Below, in pieces: positions 34,915-47,955 of a stretch of 64,000 nt of DNA (position 1 is its first letter; each line of letters starts with the position of its first letter). This stretch comes from Methanolobus psychrophilus R15 (GTDB lineage: Archaea > Halobacteriota > Methanosarcinia > Methanosarcinales > Methanosarcinaceae), in assembly GCA_000306725.1 (NCBI GenBank), contig CP003083.1:2778042-2842041 (forward strand), given 5' to 3'. The notes beneath the pieces are model-generated. The model had not been told where the DNA came from. It was given only the letters and a program-made list of their open reading frames with translations, and did not search any database. A program made the translations under genes and the position numbers.

Positions 34915-35069
34915 TCTTGCAGGTACACGGTGCTTTTTGAACTGGTATATTTTTAACTTAACATACTCTTAACTCATAGAGATATCTACAAAAACATAGC
35001 CTTGTGCCGGTAAACATGCTTTACCCGGTTACCCTGGTTATGTTATCGGATCAGCCCGGGAGAAGAAAT

Positions 35070-37055
35070 ATGGTCAAAGAAAGTTCGGTCAAAGAAACTG
35101 AAGCGGCAAATACCCCCAGAATAGGGGTTTTTGTATGCGAGTGCGGTGTGAATATAGGTGGTGTTGTGAACTGCCGGGCTGTGGCGGATTATGCTTCCAC
35201 ATTGCCCAATGTGGCCACCTCCGTGGTCAACAAGTACGCATGTAGTGATGCAGGGCAGTCGGAGATAAAACAGGCTATAAAGGACCATGATCTTAACCGT
35301 GTCCTTGTGGCCTCATGTACGCCCAAGACACATGAACCCATCTTCAAGGCATGTGTAGAGGAAGGCGGCCTGAACCCTTACCTCTTTGAATTCGTCAACA
35401 TAAGGGAACACTGCAGCTGGATCCACATGCAGGATAAGGAGAATGCCACAAAGAAGGCGAGTGAGCTGGTGCGCATGGGCGTTTCCAGGGCGCGACTCCT
35501 GGAGCCACTCCAGTCCACTGAGGTTCCTGTCACGAACAAGGCACTTGTCATCGGAGCAGGCGTTGCAGGTATGCAGGCAGCCCTGGACATTGCTGATATG
35601 GGTTACAAGGTCTATCTGGTCGAAAAGAACCCATCCATCGGCGGCAAGATGGCGCAGCTTGACAAGACCTTCCCCACAAATGATTGCAGTATATGTATAC
35701 TTGGCCCGAAGATGGTGGAAGTGTCAAGGAACAGGAATATCCAGCTTATGACCTATTCCGAAGTGGAGGAAGTGGAAGGCTACGTAGGTAACTTCAGGGC
35801 GAGGATCAGGCACAAGTCCCGTTTTGTCGATGTCACTACCTGCACTGGCTGCGGGTCATGCGTTCCGAAATGTCCGATAGAGGTACCGGACTTTGAATTC
35901 AATGAAGGTATAGGCACCCGCAAAGCCATCTATGTACCGTTCCCCCAGGCAGTACCACTCAGGGCCGTTGTGGACAGATCCGTCTGCATAGACTGTGGTG
36001 CCTGCATCAAAGCCTGTGAGAGCCATTCTATCAATATGGAGCAGGAAGAAACATTCTCCGATCTGGAAGTAGGTGTGATAGTCGTAACCACAGGATACGA
36101 CATATACGACCCGGAGCCAACAAACGACTTCGGATATGGGATATATGATAATGTTATCACCGGGATGGAGCTTGAGCGCCTGCTCAACGCCAGCGGGCCC
36201 ACAATGGGCAAGCTGGTGAGGCCCAGTGACGTCAAGCCTCCAAAGCGCGTAGGCTTTATCCAGTGCGTGGGCAGCAGGGACAAGAAGCGTAACAGGTATT
36301 GTTCCGGATTCTGTTGCATGTATGCATTGAAGGACGCCCAGCTTATAAAAGAAAAATATCCTGATTCTGAAGTATATATTATGTACATGGATATCCGGGC
36401 ACCTTTCAGGAACTATGAAGAGTTCTATGACCGGGCCAGGGACATGGGTATCAAGTTCATCCGCGGAAAGCCCGGAAAGGTGAGCGAGGATACGGATAAC
36501 AGTGTCATTGTCCGCGTCGAGGACACGCTGACGAACAATATCTACAACCTTGAGCTCGACCTGCTCGTGCTTAGTGTGGGAGCCGTGGCAAGCGAAAGTT
36601 CTGAGCGTGTCAGGCAGTTGCTTAAGGTCAGCAGGGCAGCCGACGGATTTATGATGGAAGCACATCCCAAGCTAAAACCCGTTGACACAACACTTGACGG
36701 TATATTCATAGGTGGTGTGACCCAGGGACCTAAGGACATACCTTATTCGGTATCCCAGGGAAGTGCCTGTGCCGCCCGTGCAACGCGATATCTTGCCCAG
36801 GGTAAAGCAACCACCGAAGGCATCACTGTGGAAGTTGATGAGGATATCTGCGTCGGATGCGGAATATGTGTGCCTATGTGTCCCTTCCAGGCGTTGTCGC
36901 TCGCAGATGGAAAATTAGCAATTATCAAAGCACTTTGTAAGGGGTGCGGAACCTGCGCCGTGGCATGCCCCACGGGAGCGCTGCAGCAGAGCCACTTCAA
37001 GAACCAGCAGCTGCTTGCCCAGGTCAGGAGTGTTTTCACATTTGAGGGAGAATAA
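35070..37055 (+). CDS. hdrA: CoB-CoM heterodisulfide reductase subunit A
   Basis: Flavin-bifurcating subunit, 661 residues from the chosen start. FAD-binding region: [20 protein letters not shown]. HdrA-type Cys set: [17 protein letters not shown] and [15 protein letters not shown]. Ferredoxin motifs: [35 protein letters not shown] and [13 protein letters not shown] use ATG 35070, seven bases after GGGAG; in-frame starts back to 35004 lack a ribosome site. Unlike the fused HdrA at 45601-47955, this one ends after the last ferredoxin domain and the MvhD part is a separate, damaged gene two bases downstream. Confidence 0.95.
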
Positions 37056-37057
37056 AA

Positions 37058-37490
37058 ATGGCAGAAACAGAATGGGAACCAAAGATAGTGGCTTTCTGCT
37101 GCAACTGGTGCAGCTACGGAGGCGCGGATACGGCAGGGGTGGGGAGGGTTCCGCCACCACCCCTCTTCCCTGAGGATCATCAGGGTGATGTGTTCAGGAC
37201 GTATTGACCCTATGCATGTTTTCAATGCTTTTCTTGAAGGAGCTGATGCCGTACTTGTGACCGGATGTCACCTTGGAGACTGCCACTATGTTAACGGCAA
37301 CTACAAAGCCCAGGTCAGGTACCAGTTCCTTGAAGAGATGGTCAGGGAACTTGGGCTTGAACCTGAGAGACTCCAGCTCAACTGGATAAGCGCCAGTGAA
37401 GGAGAAAAGTTCGCGAATTTCATAAGGGATGTCACTGCGCAGATAAAACAACTGGGCCCGAGCCCTCTGAAGCCTGAAGGAGTGAACTAG
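37058..37490 (+). pseudogene. mvhD: mvhD-like iron-sulfur subunit with a frameshift
   Basis: MvhD links Hdr to the electron-donating hydrogenase or dehydrogenase via a [2Fe-2S] cluster. The first 30 codons (ATG 37058) read [18 protein letters not shown], then the frame runs on to a stop. The normal continuation ([17 protein letters not shown], then GCHLGDCHY) is in the frame that is one base later and ends at 37490. The break lies in a C-rich stretch at about 37145-37170. A G-rich run GGGGTGG at about 37136 could pair with CCACCCC there, forming a hairpin over the break. This may be a true mutation, a sequencing error or recoding. Confidence 0.85.
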
Positions 37491-38642
37491 ATGGTTGGAA
37501 TTGGAGACAAGCTGCTTGGCTATGCTACTAACCCGGATGTCCGCAACAGGGGCGCATCAGGAGGACTTGTCACTGCCGTACTGGCTGCAGCTCTTGAAAA
37601 GGGAATGGTTGAGGGCGTGGTCGTGCTAAAACGTATAGATGAATATGAAGCGATCCCGGTTATCACAGATGATGTACAGGAGGTACTTGCTTCCGGAGGC
37701 AGTATGCATGCAGTGCCCGTGAACCTAGCTAAGTATGCAGTTGGCAGGAAGATAGCCATGCCCGGCAAACCCTGTGATGTCAGGGGTGTCATCGAACAGG
37801 CCAAACGCAACGGAGTTGAACTTGAGGATACCTATATAGTGGGACTCAACTGCGGAGGAGCTATGCATCCGGTGGTCACCAGGGAGATGCTCACCAGGAT
37901 GTATGAGATAGATCCGGAAGATGTGGTTGGCGAGGAGATTGAGAAGGGCAAGCTCATTTTCAAAACAAAGGATGGAGAAGAGAAGGCCATATCCATTGAT
38001 GAGCTCGAGGAAGCCGGATACGGAAGACGTGAGAACTGCCGTTATTGCACAATTAAGATACCAACGAATGCCGATCTGGCATGTGGTAACTGGGGTGTCA
38101 TCGGGGAGCTGGCTGGAAGTGCCACCTTCTGCGAAGTAATGAACGAGAAGGGCAAGCGCCTTCTTGATAATGCTATTGAGGCCGGGTTTATTGAGGTGCA
38201 GCCTGCGGACGAGAAATCCATAGCTATCCGGGAAAAGGTTAACAAAGCTATGCTTAAGCTCGGAGATGAATGGAAAGGAAGGCTCCTTACTGAGATCCCT
38301 GACCAGGAGCGTCTCACTTACTATATAGAACAGTTCGCAGACTGTATCGATTGTGGCGCCTGCAGGGAGGTCTGCCCTGTATGCACGTGCGGTGAGGAAT
38401 CAAAGTGCACCATGTTCCACAGTCTCGCAGATAATTATAAGATGAGCATGTATCACATGGTACGCCTTCTCCATTTATCTGACAGTTGTATCGGGTGTGG
38501 ACAGTGTTCTGACGTATGTCCCGTGGATATTCCGGTCACAACTATCTTCAGGCGCTTTGCAGACCCTGCCCAGAAGAAGCGCGATTATTCGCCTGGCATG
38601 GATCTCCAGAGACCGCCCTTCCTGGAGTTGATGCTGAAATGA
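37491..38642 (+). CDS. F420-dependent dehydrogenase beta subunit (FdhB/FrhB family)
   Basis: A 383-residue FrhB/FdhB family protein that binds FAD and reacts with coenzyme F420. It shows [57 protein letters not shown] (FrhB Cys motif) and a C-terminal pair of [4Fe-4S] clusters ([24 protein letters not shown]), as in formate dehydrogenase beta subunits. It begins directly after the mvhD stop and overlaps the alpha-like gene by ATGA. It probably feeds electrons from F420H2 (or formate) to the HdrA flavin. Confidence 0.9.
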
Positions 38643-40105
38643 AGGAAACTATCTACCGGACAGTGTGCCCCGGCTGTGGCATTGGATGCGGCCTCTACAT
38701 CAGGGAAAGTGGCGATGGCTCTGTAAGCATCGACTTTTTGAAGAGCAGCCAGGTGAACCTTGGAAAACTCTGCAGATTCGGGATGAAGCTGCCTCATTAC
38801 TATTCCAGGCCTGCTTCCGGCAGAGTGGAAGGCATGGTATCCGGTACTGAAGAAGCTGTCAAGGCAGCGGCTTTAAGGCTTAAAAATGCCGGGAAGATTG
38901 CCATGCTCTCTGCAGGCAACACTACCTGTGAAGAGCATATAGCATTCACAAGGCTCGCAGAGACCCTGGGTACTGTGGTACACACCGGCATTCCGGTCTA
39001 CCCGGAACTTCCTTCAGAGTGTCACCCCCATCTCGAAGGCATGCCATTGGCTGAAATAGAGGATGCGGAGAAGATTGTACTCTTCGTAGACCCCTATGTG
39101 CAATATCCACTGCTTGTCAGGAGACTGCTGGTTGCCAGGCGCAACGGTGCACATATCATATCAGCAGGCGCAAAAGAACTGCATTTTGCGCATGAGAACA
39201 GGAATCTCTCACCGGAACAGTACGCAGAACTGGAACTTGACAGTAACTCAGTCATTATCGCTGATGTGCATCCGCATACAGATTCCTGTCATACGAAGCA
39301 GCTGCTCAATCTTGCACTTGAGACCGGAGCAAGGATACACTTTATAAAACCCTTTGTAAACAGCGAAGGCGCCAACAGGCTTTCAAGGGGCAAGGCCGGA
39401 ATGATGGGTATCTCACATATCATGGATGAGATCGAAAAAGGGAGCATCAGGACCCTCTTCCTGCTTGATAGCGACCCTCTGGAGCTGATGCCGGATTCTG
39501 ATAGGACAGCAAATGCGCTGAATAAACTTGACAATCTCATTGTGATAAGCTCAAGGGACAGCCCGATCACTGAGATAGCACATGTGGTGATAGTCACTGA
39601 ACCCCTATATCGCAAAAGAGGTACCTTCATTAACGCCGAAGGGAAACTCCAGGAGAACAGCGGGCAGGATGTTGCCGGCATAGATGCAATGTCCCTGCTG
39701 AGCAGAGAATTGGGAACAGAAGGATTTGAGTACAGGCAGCTGCACGGGTACCTGCATGAAAGGATGATAGAGACCCTGGCCAATGAGAACAGGAAGCCTG
39801 AGTATGAAATAATGGAATGTGAAACTGCCCCTGTACATCACAATGGCGCCTGCACATTGAAATACCTGTTTAACCCCTTCATGTGGGTCAACCAGCCGGA
39901 TGACAATGATTTCGTGCTCCTTAACATGAATATGGTCAGGAGTCTGAAACTCAAGAAAGGTGGCATGGTCAGGCTGGATTCTGAGAAAGGAAGCATGAAA
40001 ATGCGATATCGTGTGGAAAGTATGCCTGACGGCATGATTTTGACTGCCAGGAAACTGCCAATAGCAACAGGAACGAACACAACAGTCAAAGCGGAGGGAT
40101 GCTGA
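38639..40105 (+). CDS. Compact formate-dehydrogenase-alpha-like molybdopterin protein
   Basis: A 488-residue molybdopterin oxidoreductase-like protein, about 200 residues shorter than usual FdhA. The N-terminal [4Fe-4S] motif is CPGCGIGC plus LGKLC (Cys10, 13, 17, 45). The molybdopterin core follows, and a short C-terminal cofactor-binding domain contains LLNMNMVRSLKLKKGGMVRL. A Cys128-His129 pair (PSECHPH) lies where FdhA has its Mo/W-ligating Cys or Sec followed by His, so catalysis is possible but not assured. Start ATG 38639 overlaps the fdhB-like stop. Formate oxidation, a changed substrate or a purely structural role are all open. Confidence 0.75.
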   Translation: MKETIYRTVCPGCGIGCGLYIRESGDGSVSIDFLKSSQVNLGKLCRFGMKLPHYYSRPASGRVEGMVSGTEEAVKAAALRLKNAGKIAMLSAGNTTCEEHIAFTRLAETLGTVVHTGIPVYPELPSECHPHLEGMPLAEIEDAEKIVLFVDPYVQYPLLVRRLLVARRNGAHIISAGAKELHFAHENRNLSPEQYAELELDSNSVIIADVHPHTDSCHTKQLLNLALETGARIHFIKPFVNSEGANRLSRGKAGMMGISHIMDEIEKGSIRTLFLLDSDPLELMPDSDRTANALNKLDNLIVISSRDSPITEIAHVVIVTEPLYRKRGTFINAEGKLQENSGQDVAGIDAMSLLSRELGTEGFEYRQLHGYLHERMIETLANENRKPEYEIMECETAPVHHNGACTLKYLFNPFMWVNQPDDNDFVLLNMNMVRSLKLKKGGMVRLDSEKGSMKMRYRVESMPDGMILTARKLPIATGTNTTVKAEGC

Positions 40106-40293
40106 TGATCGAACTTGATAAGGAGCAGCAGAAAGCCTTTGTCGATGAGATGATGGAATCTAACGAACTCAAAGGTGCATCCAAGAAAAGGCTAATCGTA
40201 TTTCTGGCCGAGCGCTATAAATGGGACAAACAGAAAGTCCAGCACAGGCTCAAAAGGGCCACGCTGGCCCAGAGATATGCGGAAAGCCACTGA
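40105..40293 (+). CDS. Small basic protein at the end of the hdr operon
   Basis: A 62-residue protein (MIELDKEQQKAFVDEMMESN, then a basic helix-rich C terminus with KKRLIVFLAERYKWDKQKVQHRLKR). It starts on the last base of the fdhA-like stop (TGATG), with GGAGGG six bases upstream, so it is translated with the operon. ATG 40099 is also in frame but overlaps that ribosome site. No domain is recognised. Its position suggests an assembly or stability factor for the Hdr/dehydrogenase complex, which is inference only. Confidence 0.7.
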   Translation: MIELDKEQQKAFVDEMMESNELKGASKKRLIVFLAERYKWDKQKVQHRLKRATLAQRYAESH

Positions 40294-40378
40294 CATTAAG
40301 TTTGATATATATATATGTAATATAATAGGTATTGATATAAAAAAAATTAAATTTATTACGTCATGAAAGAATGAATAA

Positions 40379-40408
40379 CATATATATCAATAAACCTATC
40401 TCTTTTTT
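40379..40408 (+). promoter_or_regulatory. Promoter for a leaderless ergothioneine operon transcript
   Basis: TATATAT at 40381-40387 is centred about 25 bases before the ATG at 40409, the usual TATA to start distance in archaea. There is no ribosome binding site, only a T-rich stretch. Transcription should begin at or next to the A of the start codon. Confidence 0.65.
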
Positions 40409-41671
40409 ATGGGGGAAATTACGACTGAAGATTTATCTATGAATTTAGATAAATATAAGTTAATTGATATAAGGTCCATTGATGCTTATAATGGATGGAA
40501 AGAGGGTGGAGAAGCAAAAAGCGGACACATAAAAGGTGCGAAATCACTACCTTATAAATGGTCACACTATATTGACTGGATAGAGATTGTCAGAAATAAA
40601 AAAATCCTGCCGGAAGATCCTCTAGTTATATACGGGTATGAAAGGCATACAACAGAAGAAGTGGCAAAGCAGTTTGAAAAGGCAGGATACTCTGATGTAA
40701 CTGTTTTCAACTCATTTTTAGAATGGGCGGAAAAGGACCTGCCAATGGAAAATCTTGAAAGGTACAGACAACTGGTTTCAGCCGACTGGCTTAACCGTTT
40801 GATCACAACAAAGGGTGCTCCTGAATATGACAGCGACAGGTTCGTGGTATGTCATGCTCATTACAGGAACCCTTCTGATTATGATGAAGGTCACATTCCG
40901 GGAGCAATATCTGTTGACACGAACACCCTTGAATCCCCGCAAACATGGAATCGTCGCTCGCCCGAAGAACTGAAGGAAGCACTGGAAAGCGCAGGAATAT
41001 CACATGATACGACGGTTATCGTTTACGGAAGGTTCTCCTATCCGAAGAACGAGGATCCTTTTCCGGGAAGCAGCGCAGGTCATCTGGGTGCAATGAGATG
41101 TGCGTTCATCATGCTCTATGCCGGTGTAAAAGATGTACGTATACTTAATGGCGGCCTCCAGTCATGGCTTGATTCGGGGTATGATATAACAAAAGAGCCT
41201 GCTCAAAGTAACAGGGTCTCTTTTGGTATCGATATTCCACAGAAACCGGAGATAGTTGTCGATCTCGAGGAAGCGAAGGAGATACTTTCATCCCCTGACA
41301 AAAACCTGGTGTGTGTCAGAAGCTGGAGGGAATATATCGGAGAGATAAGCGGGTATAATTATATTGAGAAAAAAGGCAGGATCCCGGGAGCAGTGTTCGG
41401 GGATTGTGGCTCAGACGCTTACCATATGGAAAACTACAGGAACCTGGACCATACCATGCGCGAATATGGGGAGGTTGTGGAAAACTGGAAGAAGGTCGGG
41501 ATCACTCCCGAAAAGCGCAATGCGTTCTACTGCGGGACTGGCTGGAGGGGCAGTGAGGCCTTCTTTAACGCGTGGCTTATGGGCTGGGATAGATCCGCAG
41601 TCTATGATGGCGGATGGTTTGAGTGGAGCAACAATGATCTACCTTTTGAGACGGGTGTGCCGGAAGAATGA
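40409..41671 (+). CDS. eanB: Multi-domain rhodanese, probable EanB-type ergothioneine synthase
   Basis: A 420-residue protein with three rhodanese-like domains (about 1-115, 122-268, 280-418). Domains one and two lack a catalytic Cys (VIYGYERH and VIVYGRFS at the active-site loops). Only the third has it, Cys375 in FYCGTGWRGSE. In the anaerobic ergothioneine enzyme EanB of Chlorobium the single active Cys (Cys412, as I recall) sits in the same CGTGWR loop, with a key Tyr 59 residues earlier (Tyr353); here Tyr316 is exactly 59 before Cys375. EanB transfers polysulfide sulfur onto hercynine. The next gene makes hercynine, which supports the call strongly. A general thiosulfate sulfurtransferase is the alternative. 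Confidence 0.82.
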   Translation: MGEITTEDLSMNLDKYKLIDIRSIDAYNGWKEGGEAKSGHIKGAKSLPYKWSHYIDWIEIVRNKKILPEDPLVIYGYERHTTEEVAKQFEKAGYSDVTVFNSFLEWAEKDLPMENLERYRQLVSADWLNRLITTKGAPEYDSDRFVVCHAHYRNPSDYDEGHIPGAISVDTNTLESPQTWNRRSPEELKEALESAGISHDTTVIVYGRFSYPKNEDPFPGSSAGHLGAMRCAFIMLYAGVKDVRILNGGLQSWLDSGYDITKEPAQSNRVSFGIDIPQKPEIVVDLEEAKEILSSPDKNLVCVRSWREYIGEISGYNYIEKKGRIPGAVFGDCGSDAYHMENYRNLDHTMREYGEVVENWKKVGITPEKRNAFYCGTGWRGSEAFFNAWLMGWDRSAVYDGGWFEWSNNDLPFETGVPEE

Positions 41672-42630
41672 TCATAGAAGATTTAATGCCAGAGGTCGGA
41701 GAAACTTCGATCAGAGAAAAACTGGTAGCTTGCCTGAAGTCCAATCCTAAAACCCTTCCCTGTATGTTCTTCTACGATCAGAGTGGGTCGGAACTGTTTG
41801 AGAAGATAACAAAACTTGAGGAATATTATCCTCCGAAGATCGAGATCCCTTTGCTCAGATCAACAGCCAGGAAATTTAACGGGGTGCTTAAGGACTGCGA
41901 TATCGTAGAGCTTGGGAGCGGGGATTGTTCGAAGATCTCCGTGTTCCTTGACGAGGTTCCTGAAGAATCACGTAAGAACATAGTGTATTATCCAGTTGAC
42001 GTTTCCAGAGAGGCTATAGAAAAATCCGGCCTCATCCTCCAGAAGAAATATCCTGAAATGGGACTTCATGGGATCAATGCTGATTTTCTCGAGCATATTG
42101 AAAAGATCCGGGGAAAAAGAAAGAGGCTCTTCTGTTTCTTCGGGAGCACAATAGGTAATCTGACTGAAGCAAAAGCCATGGAGTTTCTGAGAAACCTGGA
42201 CAGTGTCATGAATAAAAAAGACAGGCTTCTTCTTGGAATGGATATGGTAAAAGATATCGATGTAATCGAGAGAGCCTACAATGACAGCCAGGGGATCACT
42301 GCGAAATTCAATAAGAATATACTGAAGGTTACAAATAGTCATCTCGGAACGGATTTCAATCCTGATGATTTCGAGCATGTCGCTTTCTTCAATAAAGCAT
42401 ATTCCCGGATCGAGATGCACCTGAGAGCAAAAAGGGATCTGGAAGTGACAAGTCCTCTGCTGAAAGAGAATATAATCTTCAAAAAAGGCGAGATGATCCA
42501 TACGGAAAACTCTCATAAATATACTGTAGGCCATATCAGGAAAATGGCAGATGCTGCAGGGCTTTTCCTGGCGAACATCTATACCGATGAGAAAAAGTGG
42601 TTCTCTCTTGCTGAAATGGTGAAAAGATGA
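41668..42630 (+). CDS. eanA: L-histidine N-alpha-methyltransferase, EgtD/EanA type (hercynine synthase)
   Basis: A 320-residue SAM-dependent enzyme that trimethylates histidine to hercynine. EgtD-family motifs are complete: FYDQSGSELFEKIT with EEYYP (histidine-binding Tyr), SAM loop VELGSGDCSK, CFFGSTIGNL, LLLGMDMVKD, AYNDSQGITAKFNKN, FFNKAYSRIEMHL and the C-terminal HTENSHKY, whose Glu and Ser match the histidine-binding pair of EgtD. The start overlaps the eanB stop (ATGA), and the end overlaps sufS (ATGA), so the four genes are translationally coupled. No egtB or egtE homologue is present, as expected for an anaerobe. Confidence 0.9.
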   Translation: MIIEDLMPEVGETSIREKLVACLKSNPKTLPCMFFYDQSGSELFEKITKLEEYYPPKIEIPLLRSTARKFNGVLKDCDIVELGSGDCSKISVFLDEVPEESRKNIVYYPVDVSREAIEKSGLILQKKYPEMGLHGINADFLEHIEKIRGKRKRLFCFFGSTIGNLTEAKAMEFLRNLDSVMNKKDRLLLGMDMVKDIDVIERAYNDSQGITAKFNKNILKVTNSHLGTDFNPDDFEHVAFFNKAYSRIEMHLRAKRDLEVTSPLLKENIIFKKGEMIHTENSHKYTVGHIRKMADAAGLFLANIYTDEKKWFSLAEMVKR

Positions 42631-43808
42631 CCGATTTCAAGAAAGATTTCCCGATACTTGAAAAAGAGATATATGGAAAACGGCTGGTTTACCTTGATAA
42701 CGCGGCAACGAGCCAGAAACCAAGCTATGTGATCGAGACTATCTCTGAGTTCTACAGATCGGATAATGGTAATATACACCGGGGAGTACATTACCTGAGT
42801 GAGGTCTCAAGTGAAAAGTATGAGAAAGCAAGGGAAAAGGTCAGTGACTTCATAGGCGCCCGTGACCCGGCTGAAGTGACATTCACTGCCGGAACAACTG
42901 ATTCGATCAACCAGGTTGCATGCTCGCTTGAACCAATCCTGAAGGGAAACGAGGTTCTGATCACTGGTGTTGAGCACCACTCAAATATCGTGCCATGGCA
43001 GCTTGCAGGAGCAAAACTCCGGGCAATCCCGATTGACGAAGATTGTAATTTGCTGACAGATTCCATAGAGATCACGGATAAAACGAAATTGATAGCCATA
43101 TCCCATGTCTCGAATGTCCTTGGTTCCGTCAATCCCATCAAAGAGATAACCGAAATAGCAAAAGACCACGATATCCCTGTGCTTGTAGATGCGGCCCAGT
43201 CGATACAGCATCTGCCAATTGATGTGAAGGATATAGGTTGTGATTTCCTGGCATTCTCAGGCCACAAGATGTATGCAGCAACCGGAGTTGGCGTGCTTTA
43301 CACAAGTGAGCGTTTCAGTGATATCATGCCGGCAAAAGGCGGAGGAGGCATGGTTGACAAAGTAACTCTTGAAAGAACAACATACCTGAACCCCCCTTTA
43401 AGGTACGAGGCAGGCACGCCGCACATCGCGGGTGCAATAAGTGTTGCTGCAGCAATTGATTACATGCAGAATATAGGCATGGATGAGATCAGAAAGCACG
43501 AGCATAATGTATATTCCTACGCAAGGAAAAAACTGCTGGAAACGGATGGTGTGACAGGTTACGGGAACACTGACGAGATGTGCGGTTCCATCTCATTCAA
43601 CCTTGACAATATCCATCAGTACGACACAGGAATGATACTGGATAAAATGGGGATCGCTGTCAGGACCGGACATCACTGCGCTCAGCCATTGATGAGATCC
43701 CTCGGAACCGAAGGCACCGTGCGTGCAAGTTTTGCATTGTACAATACTGAAGAAGATGCCGACATGCTCATTGAAGGCATAGAGAAAGTAAGGATGATGT
43801 ATGCATGA
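42627..43808 (+). CDS. sufS: Cysteine desulfurase, SufS type
   Basis: A 393-residue PLP enzyme that takes sulfur from cysteine as an enzyme persulfide. The sequence shows YLDNAATSQKP, GVEHHSNIVPW, DAAQSIQHLPIDV, the PLP Lys in FSGHKMYAATG and the persulfide Cys in RTGHHCAQPLM, the short-loop form of the SufS/CsdA group. It sits between the histidine methyltransferase and a SufE-like acceptor with ATGA overlaps on both sides. No sufBC genes are nearby, so the likely sulfur customer is the rhodanese EanB, not only Fe-S assembly. Confidence 0.93.
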   Translation: MTDFKKDFPILEKEIYGKRLVYLDNAATSQKPSYVIETISEFYRSDNGNIHRGVHYLSEVSSEKYEKAREKVSDFIGARDPAEVTFTAGTTDSINQVACSLEPILKGNEVLITGVEHHSNIVPWQLAGAKLRAIPIDEDCNLLTDSIEITDKTKLIAISHVSNVLGSVNPIKEITEIAKDHDIPVLVDAAQSIQHLPIDVKDIGCDFLAFSGHKMYAATGVGVLYTSERFSDIMPAKGGGGMVDKVTLERTTYLNPPLRYEAGTPHIAGAISVAAAIDYMQNIGMDEIRKHEHNVYSYARKKLLETDGVTGYGNTDEMCGSISFNLDNIHQYDTGMILDKMGIAVRTGHHCAQPLMRSLGTEGTVRASFALYNTEEDADMLIEGIEKVRMMYA

Positions 43809-44212
43809 GGGATGCTGTCCAGGACGATATCATAAAACAATTCGATGGCCTTGAATGGCTTGACAAGTACGGTCTGCTTATCTCCTTTGCCAAAGAGCTC
43901 GAGCCCATGGATGAAAAGTTCAAGACCGAAGAGAACTCAATCAGCGGGTGCCAGTCCAAGGTCTGGATCAGGACTTATAGGGAGAACGGTAAAATGATTA
44001 TCGATCTCGATAGTGATGCCATGATCACCAGAGGTATCATTTCTCTTTTACTAAAGGTTGTGAACAACCGCTCTCCTCGGGATATTGTAGATCTCGACCT
44101 GTATTTTATCGAAGAGATCGGCTTAAAGTCGAATCTTTCACCTGCAAGGGCGGATGGGCTGGCGTCGATCATCAGGAGGATACGGGAAGTGGCCAAGAGG
44201 GAGGCAAATTGA
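43805..44212 (+). CDS. sufE: SufE-like sulfur acceptor
   Basis: A 135-residue SufE-family protein. The acceptor Cys lies in ISGCQSKVW, near residue 49, the SufE hallmark, and the C-terminal SNLSPARADGLASIIRRI helix matches the family. SufE takes persulfide sulfur from SufS and hands it on. Being the last gene of the eanB-eanA-sufS-sufE operon, it could relay sulfur to Cys375 of the rhodanese. It is convergent with the polyferredoxin gene, 87 bases away. Confidence 0.9.
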   Translation: MRDAVQDDIIKQFDGLEWLDKYGLLISFAKELEPMDEKFKTEENSISGCQSKVWIRTYRENGKMIIDLDSDAMITRGIISLLLKVVNNRSPRDIVDLDLYFIEEIGLKSNLSPARADGLASIIRRIREVAKREAN

Positions 44213-44299: not shown

Positions 44300-45604
44300 T
44301 TATTCATTTTCTCCGCCGGACTCCTTGGCTTTCGCTTCCACACCCTTCCGATATTTAGCATTGCTGAGCAGAGAACCTGCTTTTTCCAGGCGTTTTCTTG
44401 CTGCCTGCAGGTAAGAGGGATCAATGTCCGGCATTTCCACCTCAACATGCTCATGGGGAGGCTCTTTCTCAACTTCAAGGGTCCTTGAGATGTCAGGATA
44501 ATTCCGTTCTCCGGTCTTTATGGAATCGACTGCATCACGCCATTGGCCAGCCCATGGAGAGTCGGGGATGCCGGTATGGGATACTTCAGAGCGAGAGACC
44601 TTCATTACGTCCTTGGGGCAGGCATTGACACAGGCACCACAGTAGATACAGTAGTCCTCTTTTATCGCAATGTTGTTTTTGCCGTCCTCCGGGACATACC
44701 AGAGATGGGAAGGGCAGACATTGAAGCAGCCATGGCAGCCCTGAGGGTCGCACTTACTGATATTGGCATCTATAAGAGAGATCTCACCCTCAAAGGGCTT
44801 CTTAATATCGACGGCCTCATAAGGACACACCACCTGGCACCATGTGCACCTGGTACACTTGTCGTCATCCACTACCAGTCTTCCTTCAATCTTCGGGGCC
44901 TCACCACGCCTTTCTCCCTTTACATGTATTGCTTCCTCGGGGCAGAGGTCCTGGCAAAGTACGCAGTAATCGCATTTGTCCTCATCCACCAGCAAAAGCT
45001 CAAATGGTGAAGGGTCAGTTGGAGTAGGCTCTTTTTCGACGAGAAGGAAAGCATCACAGAACTGAGCGCAAAGGCCACAGAAGTTGCACTTGTCCGTATC
45101 TATCTCTATCTCGCCTTTAACGTCTCCTCCGGACTTATCTTTGAGAGGCGCTATCTCTTCCTTTTTCTTAAAAGTAAACTCAACATCGATGGCATCTTCC
45201 GGACAGGCGGCCTTGCAGATAGCACAGGGAAGACACTTGTCATTCATGCGGACATGTGCATCCAGTTCGGGGAAATTTTCATGTTCCGGAAAATCACCTT
45301 CTGAAGTCATCCTGAATGCGTCAACCGGGCAGAAGCTGGCACACATGGAGCAGAAGGTGCATTTATCCAGGTCCATCATCACCGGGGGCGCATCAAGCCC
45401 GGTAGCTATTTCTTTAATGGGCCCGAGCTCCAGTGCTTTCGTGGGGCAGAGCCTAACACATATGCCGCACCCGATACACCGTTTGTAATCGTAATCAAGG
45501 AGTTTTACGGACTTGTCAGTAATCAATCGATATCTGAAACAGGAGCCATCTATATCCATTTCCCTGGTCACTGCCAACGACTTGTCTCCAGAGGAGTCGC
45601 TCAT
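44300..45604 (-). CDS. Polyferredoxin with eight [4Fe-4S] motifs
   Basis: A 434-residue protein with eight ferredoxin Cys motifs in series, for example CIGCGICVRLCP, CTFCSMCASFCP, CLPCAICKAACP, CNFCGLCAQFC, CDYCVLCQDLCP, CTRCTWCQVVCP, CHGCFNVCP and CIYCGACVNACP, followed by a 100-residue tail with no Cys. The chosen start, ATG 45604, overlaps the hdrA-mvhD stop (ATGA). This resembles the polyferredoxin gene linked to an hdrA gene in Methanosarcina. It should carry electrons between the HdrA fusion protein and another reductase. Confidence 0.9.
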   Translation of the reverse strand: MSDSSGDKSLAVTREMDIDGSCFRYRLITDKSVKLLDYDYKRCIGCGICVRLCPTKALELGPIKEIATGLDAPPVMMDLDKCTFCSMCASFCPVDAFRMTSEGDFPEHENFPELDAHVRMNDKCLPCAICKAACPEDAIDVEFTFKKKEEIAPLKDKSGGDVKGEIEIDTDKCNFCGLCAQFCDAFLLVEKEPTPTDPSPFELLLVDEDKCDYCVLCQDLCPEEAIHVKGERRGEAPKIEGRLVVDDDKCTRCTWCQVVCPYEAVDIKKPFEGEISLIDANISKCDPQGCHGCFNVCPSHLWYVPEDGKNNIAIKEDYCIYCGACVNACPKDVMKVSRSEVSHTGIPDSPWAGQWRDAVDSIKTGERNYPDISRTLEVEKEPPHEHVEVEMPDIDPSYLQAARKRLEKAGSLLSNAKYRKGVEAKAKESGGENE

Positions 45605-47955
45605 TGAGGGCCCTCCTGCAGTTCCGAACCAATAGGACCTATCTTTTCCAGATATTCCACGAAACTTCGGATGGAGCCTGCAAACCTCTCGCCTTCGGCT
45701 GCGGATATCCACTCGACTCTTAGACGGCCTGAATCGATACCGATATCACCGAGCACTTCCTGGAGTGCTTCCATCCTGTGCTTGGCATTGTAGTTCGCAA
45801 ATATGTAATGGCATTCTCCCAGGCGGCACCCAGCAACCAGCACCCCGTCGGCCCCGCGCTCGAAAGCCTCAAGCACGAAGGCAGGGTCCACACGCCCGGC
45901 ACAGGCGACCCTTATAGTTCTGATATTGGTTGGATACTGTATCCTTGATGTACCTGCGAGGTCCGAGCATGTGTAACTGCACCAGTTGCACAGGAATGCT
46001 ATTATGAGAGGGAACTCGGACTTGACCTCTGTAGCCGCCTGTATCTGTGCAATTATCTGCTCATCGGTACTGTTGTGCATGGTTATTGCGTCCGACGGGC
46101 AGGAAGCACTGCATGCGCCACAGCCCATGCAGGATAGCTCCTCCACCACCGCCTTGCGGTCAATCATGCTGATCTTTTTGAACTTGCAAACATCAGCGCA
46201 GATGCCACATCCGATACACACATCGGCGTTCACATGGGCGCTGAGAGGGTCAGCTTCAAGCTCGCCTTTTGAGAGAAGCTGCATTACCTTGGAGGCGGCA
46301 GCACTGCCCTGTGCTATGGAAACCTGTATCTCCTTGGGCCCGGAGGCACAGCCAGCTATGTAAATGCCCTTGACATGGGAATCTACCGGCTTCATTTTGG
46401 GATGGGCTATTGCAAAGAAGCGGTCCGGACGCCTGGAAAGGTTGAACACACGTGATATCCTGTCAGCATCAGGAACATTCTCCAGGCCCGTGGCAAGTAC
46501 AACAAGGTCATACGGCTCTTCATGGATCTCGCCTGCCAAGGTGTCCTCGTATCGCAGATACAGCCTGCCCGTGGCATCCGGCATTATCTCTGCAACCCTG
46601 CCCCGTGTGAAGTCTATGCCCATGGACTGGGTCCTTATATAGTACTCCTCGTACATCTCTCCGGATGCGCGGATGTCAATGTAGTGGATGTTAATATCAA
46701 TATCAGGATAGCGTTCCTTGAGTAACTGGGCGTTCTTCATGCTGGCCATGCAGCAGACCCTTGAACAATATGGATTGCCGACCTTTTCGTCCCTTGAACC
46801 CACACACTGGATGAAGGCTACCTTTTTGGGAACCTGCCCCGTGGACGGCACAACTACCTTTCCTTTGGTGGGGCCTGCAGCATTGAGCAGGCGTTCGAGC
46901 TCCATATTTGTGATCACATCTGGATACAGGCCATACCCATATTCCTGTTTGCGTTTGGCATCGAAGAGGCTGTATCCTGTGGCAAGTACAATGGCTCCTA
47001 CAGTGAACTCAAGAGTTTCCTCCTTCTGTCCGTAATCGATAGCATCCGCAGGGCATGCCTGCTTGCACAGTCCGCAGCCAACGCAGTATTTACTATCTAT
47101 ATAGACTACCTGTGGCACTGCCTGGGGGATAGGCATGTTGATGGCTTTAGTTTTCCCAAGTCCGCAGTCGAAGATGTTGGATATCTCCACAGGACATACG
47201 CGCCCGCATTCATCCACACAGCCTTTGCACTTATTCTCGTCAACATACCTTGGCCTGCGCTTCACGGTCACATTGAAATTGCCCACGGACCCTGTGACCT
47301 CGCTGACCTGCGCCATTGTGATAAGATCGATATTCGGATGGTTCTGCACATCGGTCATCTTGGGCGCCAGCACGCATATGGAACAATCGTTTGTTGGAAA
47401 GACCTCGTTAAGCAGTGCCATCTTACCGCCAATCGTCGGTTCCTTCTCGACCATGATGACATGATAACCTGAATCCGCAAGGGTCAGCGCGGCTTCGATG
47501 CCTGCAACCCCTCCCCCGATAACAAGCACATCCTTTGTGACAGGAACTTTCTTCATCTGCAGCGGGTCAAGCAGTTTCAGTCTGGCGACTCCCATCCTGA
47601 TAAGGTCGAAGGCCTTCTGTGTGGCCATCTGGGGCTCTTCCTGATGCACCCATGAGCACTGCTCCCTGATGTTTGCCATCTCAAGCATGAAAGGGTTCAG
47701 CCCCGCTTTTGCAAGCACCCTCTTGAAGGTAGGCTCGTGCAGATGAGGCGAGCAAGCAGCCACAAGTATGCGGTCAAGCTTGTTCTCTCTTATGTCCTCT
47801 ATTATAGCGTCCTGTCCTGAATCAGAGCACATGAACTGTATGTCCCTGACAACTGCAACATCATCTAAGCCGCCTGCTTTCTCCTGCAGGGAATTAACGT
47901 TAATAGTGTGGGCTATGTTCAGTCCGCAGTGACAGATATATACTCCGATCCGCAT
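45601..47955 (-). CDS. hdrA: HdrA-MvhD fusion protein
   Basis: A 784-residue fusion. The HdrA part carries [48 protein letters not shown], the inserted CKGCVDECGRVCP and three further ferredoxin motifs (CVGCGLCKQACP, CIGCGICADVC, CMGCGACSASCP). The MvhD part (about residues 655-784) carries FLCNWCSYTCSDLAG, CAGRVDPAF and GCRLGECHY. No HdrB or HdrC genes are on this side; the only partner is the polyferredoxin downstream. It could share HdrBC with the other locus or serve a different acceptor. It is convergent with the eanB operon and the hdrCBA operon. Confidence 0.93.
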   Translation of the reverse strand: MRIGVYICHCGLNIAHTINVNSLQEKAGGLDDVAVVRDIQFMCSDSGQDAIIEDIRENKLDRILVAACSPHLHEPTFKRVLAKAGLNPFMLEMANIREQCSWVHQEEPQMATQKAFDLIRMGVARLKLLDPLQMKKVPVTKDVLVIGGGVAGIEAALTLADSGYHVIMVEKEPTIGGKMALLNEVFPTNDCSICVLAPKMTDVQNHPNIDLITMAQVSEVTGSVGNFNVTVKRRPRYVDENKCKGCVDECGRVCPVEISNIFDCGLGKTKAINMPIPQAVPQVVYIDSKYCVGCGLCKQACPADAIDYGQKEETLEFTVGAIVLATGYSLFDAKRKQEYGYGLYPDVITNMELERLLNAAGPTKGKVVVPSTGQVPKKVAFIQCVGSRDEKVGNPYCSRVCCMASMKNAQLLKERYPDIDINIHYIDIRASGEMYEEYYIRTQSMGIDFTRGRVAEIMPDATGRLYLRYEDTLAGEIHEEPYDLVVLATGLENVPDADRISRVFNLSRRPDRFFAIAHPKMKPVDSHVKGIYIAGCASGPKEIQVSIAQGSAAASKVMQLLSKGELEADPLSAHVNADVCIGCGICADVCKFKKISMIDRKAVVEELSCMGCGACSASCPSDAITMHNSTDEQIIAQIQAATEVKSEFPLIIAFLCNWCSYTCSDLAGTSRIQYPTNIRTIRVACAGRVDPAFVLEAFERGADGVLVAGCRLGECHYIFANYNAKHRMEALQEVLGDIGIDSGRLRVEWISAAEGERFAGSIRSFVEYLEKIGPIGSELQEGPQ

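Follow-up and report, generated by a model that had tools for sequence, protein, structure and literature searches.

Ergothioneine is usually regarded as an antioxidant. Among the described systems for its synthesis, the EanA-EanB pair of Chlorobium limicola (Clim_1148/1149; PDB 6h98, 6ktv) is the closest to a four-gene locus that we analyzed in the methanogen Methanolobus psychrophilus R15, within a 64,000-nucleotide stretch of contig CP003083.1 (assembly GCA_000306725.1, positions 2,778,042 to 2,842,041, forward strand; hereafter, the window). The C. limicola EanB is active with IscS or polysulfide in vitro (PMC9103826), and the physiological sulfur source of the enzyme is disputed: IscS worked first, and polysulfide was later shown to be sufficient. 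The window locus shares with C. limicola the same two enzymes, their catalytic set and the eanB-eanA linkage, but additionally includes sufS and sufE, whereas the C. limicola EanB, which has been described with a polysulfide donor, falls on the side of the EanB tree that lacks linked SufE. With a probability of roughly 0.8, we interpret the locus as an operon for anaerobic ergothioneine synthesis that includes a sulfur branch of its own, in which SufS and SufE feed EanB.

The pathway itself has been reported in methanogens. Published accounts place eanA and eanB in Methanohalophilus mahii and Salinibacter ruber (Burn et al. 2017, as cited by PMC11993508) and in Methanococcoides vulcani (PMC7278568), and the two genes have been noted in archaea generally (PMC9516567). 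M. mahii and M. vulcani belong to the same family as the organism studied here and carry the same genes (the M. vulcani locus is L085 in our set), but those accounts, in their available portions, describe the EanA/EanB pair only, with no mention of SufS or SufE. A preliminary description of the window, made from the sequence alone, had presented oxygen-free ergothioneine synthesis in a methanogen as notable; the pathway genes are confirmed, but the finding is not new given the published M. mahii and M. vulcani genes. The new part appears to be the sulfur branch, that is, SufS and SufE together with EanB. No tie between SufE and EanB was found in the literature searched, which did not extend to the primary EanB papers (Burn 2017, Leisinger 2019, Cheng 2020).

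Two other kinds of systems are comparable. The metallopterin-dependent ergothioneine synthase, MES, of Caldithrix abyssi (PMC9516567) resembles the proposed system in being anaerobic, with a dedicated cysteine desulfurase and a persulfide relay, but sulfurization by MES involves Mo/W-pterin in a fused protein, in contrast to the rhodanese and separate SufS and SufE encoded in the window. Sulfur transfer from a desulfurase to a rhodanese is known for IscS-YnjE of Escherichia coli, IscS-ThiI, and ABA3-STR18 of Arabidopsis (PMC8931425). In IscS-YnjE and ABA3-STR18, a cysteine desulfurase likewise loads a rhodanese-type sulfurtransferase, and, EanB itself aside, YnjE is the closest relative with a solved structure; however, no SufE-type carrier is described for these pairs, and the end acceptors are different.

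Operon structure and catalytic residues

The four genes occupy window positions 40409-44212 on the plus strand, with a 4-bp ATGA overlap at each of the three junctions (Table 1), in a single-contig, 3.07 Mb Methanosarcinaceae genome whose closest named relatives in the EanB search belong to Methanolobus. The coordinates of the open reading frames and their assignment to families with Pfam and NCBIfam profiles bear out the ATGA-joined order rhodanese, EgtD, SufS, SufE that had been read from the sequence originally.

The rhodanese, judging from sequence comparison, is EanB and not a generic rhodanese. Three rhodanese domains were recognized with Pfam, and the match to E. coli YnjE (284 bits) is far below that to C. 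limicola EanB (Table 1). Tyr316, Cys375, Thr377 and Arg380 correspond to Y353, C412, T414 and R417 of C. limicola EanB, and this Tyr/Cys/Thr/Arg set is invariant in 81 of 81 homologues. In the comparison with the solved C. limicola mutants Y353F and T414A, the mutated residues fall exactly opposite positions 316 and 377 of the window EanB, respectively; these mismatches fix the numbering offset at 37, so that Cys375 is Cys412 and Arg380 is Arg417. The preliminary matching of Tyr316 and Cys375 to the Tyr353/Cys412 spacing thus holds, the 59-residue distance being correct. The structure comparison proposed at the same time gave a concordant result: in a Foldseek search with an AlphaFold2 model of the window EanB (17 sequences in the alignment; mean predicted local distance difference test score of 81), EanB entries came first (E 5e-56, template modelling score 0.77-0.80), followed by YnjE (E 7e-38). 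The model adds little over the sequence because the stretch 334-351 is poorly modelled. The window EanB contains five cysteines, among which C333 (C370 in C. limicola) is conserved in 80 of the 81 homologues; a relay via this second cysteine was not retained as anything beyond a candidate because the C. limicola protein with the other cysteines replaced still worked (PMC9103826).

The methyltransferase scores 345 bits against the EgtD equivalog TIGR03438 (cut-off 290.9), and the nine residues of M. smegmatis EgtD that were compared (Y39, F47, Y56, T163, N166, Y206, M252, E282 and S284), including the histidine-binding Y39, Y56, N166, M252, E282 and S284, are all kept, which agrees, as regards histidine, with the earlier claim that the motifs for binding histidine and S-adenosylmethionine (SAM) are retained. 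Because of this score and these residues, histidine is the expected substrate of EanA. The eanA gene of a Methanococcoides-like genome (G021; L061 6599-7558) carries an in-frame TAG at residue 127, a Lys in the window protein, which is possibly pyrrolysine or a fresh lesion. Distant methyltransferases of the PF10017 family, mostly scoring 60-97 bits, are present, with no EanB, in G004-G009 and in Methanosarcina-type genomes (G074-G104).

SufS passes the TIGR01979 cut-off (510 bits vs 475.1) and scores 425 bits against SufS structures such as 5j8q, to which the SGHKM and HHCAQP motifs align. SufE is over the PF02657 cut-off, and its Cys49, in GCQSKVW (family pattern GCQSxVW), aligns with Cys51 of E. 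coli SufE (1mzg). It falls below the NCBIfam equivalog cut-offs PRK09296 (92 vs 160) and CsdE (87.5 vs 136.4), scores that place it within the SufE family but not in the enterobacterial equivalog. A genome search yielded a single match, so the window sufE is the sole SufE in the host genome. Elsewhere in this genome, a NifS/IscS-type desulfurase adjoins IscU, and a SufS-like desulfurase directly adjoins FdhD (C1, around 1,026,400; L067 6424-8443), the latter being another candidate dedicated desulfurase-client pair. These other desulfurases of the host also adjoin their presumed clients.

Co-occurrence and phylogeny of SufE and EanB

EanB was detected in 29 of the 112 Methanosarcinaceae genomes (4 of the 14 genera); a SufE that passes the cut-off is present in exactly these 29 genomes and G051. 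Conversely, 82 of the 83 genomes without EanB lack SufE; the exception, G051, is a contig break, its contig being cut within eanA and carrying sufS and sufE after it, which leaves eanB off the contig. Of the 28 relatives, 26 have the complete order eanB-eanA-sufS-sufE; in G022 and G053, the operon is interrupted by the end of a contig, and sufE was located on a separate one, which in G022 opens with this gene. In the survey of the archaeal phylum (393 genomes from 136 genera), all 23 genomes with EanB have SufE over the cut-off, whereas the 370 without EanB contain one such SufE, that of G051, and one 31-codon remnant (Fisher p ~1e-36, a value that overstates the independent evidence, the genomes being related). 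In the genome with the remnant (G018; L232 293-385), only the final 31 codons of sufE persist, beside a tRNA-like end, in what looks like the scar of operon loss.

To look beyond the family, 84,980 named species genomes were scanned; this yielded 343 relatives, and the best 80 loci among them were examined. Most of these genomes are metagenome-assembled, so that absences are soft. The eanB-eanA-sufS-sufE order was identified in 10 of these loci, from Aminicenantes, Phycisphaerae, Thermoplasmatales (an archaeon), Omnitrophota (three), Syntrophomonadaceae, Elusimicrobia (two) and Fibrobacter, with the genes 10-133 bp apart and no overlaps; in a second Thermoplasmata locus, the contig ends inside sufS. 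As it is kept in these 10 loci and in 26 other Methanosarcinaceae loci, the order is not due to chance, which answers affirmatively the survey suggested in the preliminary description. Reduced arrangements were also observed among the best 80: eanB-sufS-sufE in two loci, eanA-eanB-sufE in one, and sufE directly 3' of eanB, with no EanA or SufS, in six (Caldithrix, Gemmatimonadota, two Ignavibacteriales and two others). Because eanB-sufE pairs occur without eanA or sufS, the likely partner of SufE is EanB rather than EanA.

Exactly one SufE was found in 18 of the 20 non-family genomes with a linked locus; the exceptions are Caldithrix, with a second, weak one, and the Thermoplasmata genome with the cut-off contig, with none. 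Bacteroidota-type genomes have eanB and no sufE nearby, but 8 of 10 encode SufE elsewhere, usually adjoining a SufS. Thus, EanB genomes generally possess SufE, linked or not. No natural SufE-EanB fusion was found among 108 loci. In two Bacteroidales, EanB and EanA share one open frame (L110 6931-9168 and L122 8001-10217), that is, are natural EanB-EanA fusions; some Bacteroidales have an NADPH-FMN reductase between eanB and eanA (L105 3487-4059; L119 4723-5610), accompanied in L119 by a DUF427 protein. In Salinimicrobium (L114, L116, L123, L127, L139-L141, L147), EanB is apart from EgtD, which sits elsewhere in the genomes searched. Salinimicrobium belongs to the Flavobacteriaceae and is generally regarded as aerobic; oxygen-independent ergothioneine synthesis would be unexpected in aerobes.

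In the EanB tree (82 rows), the SufE-linked and unlinked states are separated by a single change. The linked side includes the methanogens, Thermoplasmata and bacterial phyla from Calditrichota to Gemmatimonadota; the unlinked side includes Bacteroidota, a few Ignavibacteriota and, by position, C. limicola. This tree was built with a quick method, and its deep supports are modest (82-94 in the Shimodaira-Hasegawa-like approximate likelihood ratio test). In the SufE tree, 32 EanB-linked SufE form one clade as opposed to 37 free SufE (99/93; one change in 200/200 bootstraps), the free sample being mainly from Bacteroidota and Planctomycetota, plus E. coli. The linked SufE of Phycisphaerae belongs to this clade and does not group with 29 other SufE sampled from the same phylum, and in a smaller tree, E. 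coli SufE and CsdE fall outside the clade. The result is not circular because the linked sample was chosen by EanB and not by SufE similarity. The SufS tree points in the same direction, weakly (71/79). A mirror-tree comparison of EanB and SufE gave r 0.91, or 0.66 without the methanogens, but was set aside as proof of partnership because such correlation is expected for any travelling operon. Several positions mark the SufE-linked EanB (L128, S222, L226, N299 and N371) and the EanB-linked SufE (T75, L99 and Y100); naming them a contact interface would require a model of the complex.

Because the C. limicola EanB belongs to a lineage without linked SufE, the mechanism established with it may not carry over to the window EanB. 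It is an even call whether there are two natural kinds of EanB: one, in archaea and about ten bacterial phyla, that would be loaded with protein-bound persulfide by a dedicated SufE, and another that Bacteroidota and green sulfur bacteria would supply from the general sulfur pool or with polysulfide. On that reading, the polysulfide model derives entirely from the second, unlinked kind, with the SufE-linked kind being the wider one by phylum.

Proposed sulfur transfer and alternative explanations

Under the proposed scheme, EanA would trimethylate histidine with SAM to yield hercynine, while SufS would form a persulfide with sulfur drawn from cysteine and pass this sulfur to Cys49 of SufE. SufE would then transfer the sulfur to Cys375 of EanB, either directly or by a very short small-thiol step. 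Tyr316 would activate C2 of hercynine, and the Cys375 persulfide would donate its sulfur, producing ergothioneine without oxygen. Both ergothioneine as the in vivo product and direct transfer from SufE to EanB are what we infer from the genes and their distribution.

Several considerations weigh against this scheme. The literature searched yielded neither metabolite nor enzyme data on a SufE-linked system. Polysulfide serves the C. limicola EanB directly, and Cys412 of that enzyme is buried at the far end of a 13 Å tunnel, where, it has been argued, a protein donor could not reach it (PMC9103826). The existence of EanB lineages without linked SufE implies that an adjoining SufE is not obligatory, synteny and co-occurrence are no proof of contact between SufE and EanB, and SufS-SufE could serve other sulfur acceptors too. 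Polysulfide use and the tunnel, along with the re-reading of IscS-dependent EanB activity as formation of S8 or polysulfide (PMC9103826), also speak for the main rival explanation, namely, that SufS and SufE release sulfane sulfur, and a small polysulfide or low-molecular persulfide enters the tunnel of EanB, making the pair a local source and not a docking partner. We regard this as possible but doubtful: a diffusible source needs no particular SufE lineage, yet the linked SufE, from about a dozen phyla, group in a single clade, and some loci retain SufE but not SufS beside EanB. Accordingly, of the earlier proposal that SufS and SufE supply EanB through a protein persulfide relay, the supply is well supported, well beyond the window, and the relay stays a suggestion in view of the IscS and polysulfide activities and the 13 Å tunnel.

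SufS and SufE are, as their family names say, classical SUF proteins, and could represent an Fe-S cluster (SUF) module that is in the operon by happenstance and does not serve EanB. This is extremely improbable considering that different phyla share the four-gene order. A role of SufS and SufE in Fe-S assembly is rejected in view of the absence of SufE from Methanosarcinaceae without EanB, where this process is independent of SufE, and of the NifS/IscS-type desulfurase beside IscU. A different product, a 2-thio- or 2-selenohistidine derivative such as selenoneine or a thiolated histidine of another methylation state, is very unlikely as well. It would be compatible with the ability of SufS-type enzymes to act also on selenocysteine; however, every EgtD histidine-binding and EanB residue tested is kept. 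Furthermore, production of selenoneine with EanB was attempted and failed (PMC9103826).

The SufE lineage that tracks EanB over about a dozen phyla, and in this archaeal phylum is confined to EanB carriers, is a defined candidate for the disputed donor, and the genes of the four-gene operon are better matched to one another for producing ergothioneine anaerobically. Ergothioneine genes with their own cysteine-fed supply in strictly anaerobic archaea argue for roles beyond oxygen defence.

Features and flanks of the operon

Table 1. Features of the predicted ergothioneine locus in the window
Feature	Position	Strand	Evidence
AT-rich leader 5' of eanB, likely contains the operon promoter	40294..40408	+	sequence
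eanB, three-domain rhodanese, predicted ergothioneine synthase, 420 aa	40409..41671	+	594 bits to PDB 6ktv; 62% identity
eanA/egtD, predicted SAM-dependent histidine N-alpha-methyltransferase, 320 aa	41668..42630	+	TIGR03438; conserved EgtD residues
sufS, cysteine desulfurase, 393 aa	42627..43808	+	TIGR01979; HHCAQP catalytic Cys and SGHKM pyridoxal phosphate-Lys motifs
sufE, persulfide carrier, 135 aa	43805..44212	+	PF02657, 134 bits; Cys49 in GCQSKVW

Scans for sigma-70 promoters, which are bacterial, are inapplicable to archaea and hence uninformative for the leader. The upstream flank (35004-40293) contains genes for HdrA-like and FdhB-like proteins and a molybdopterin oxidoreductase; downstream (44300-47955), there are genes for a polyferredoxin and an HdrA-like protein with an MvhD/FlpD domain.

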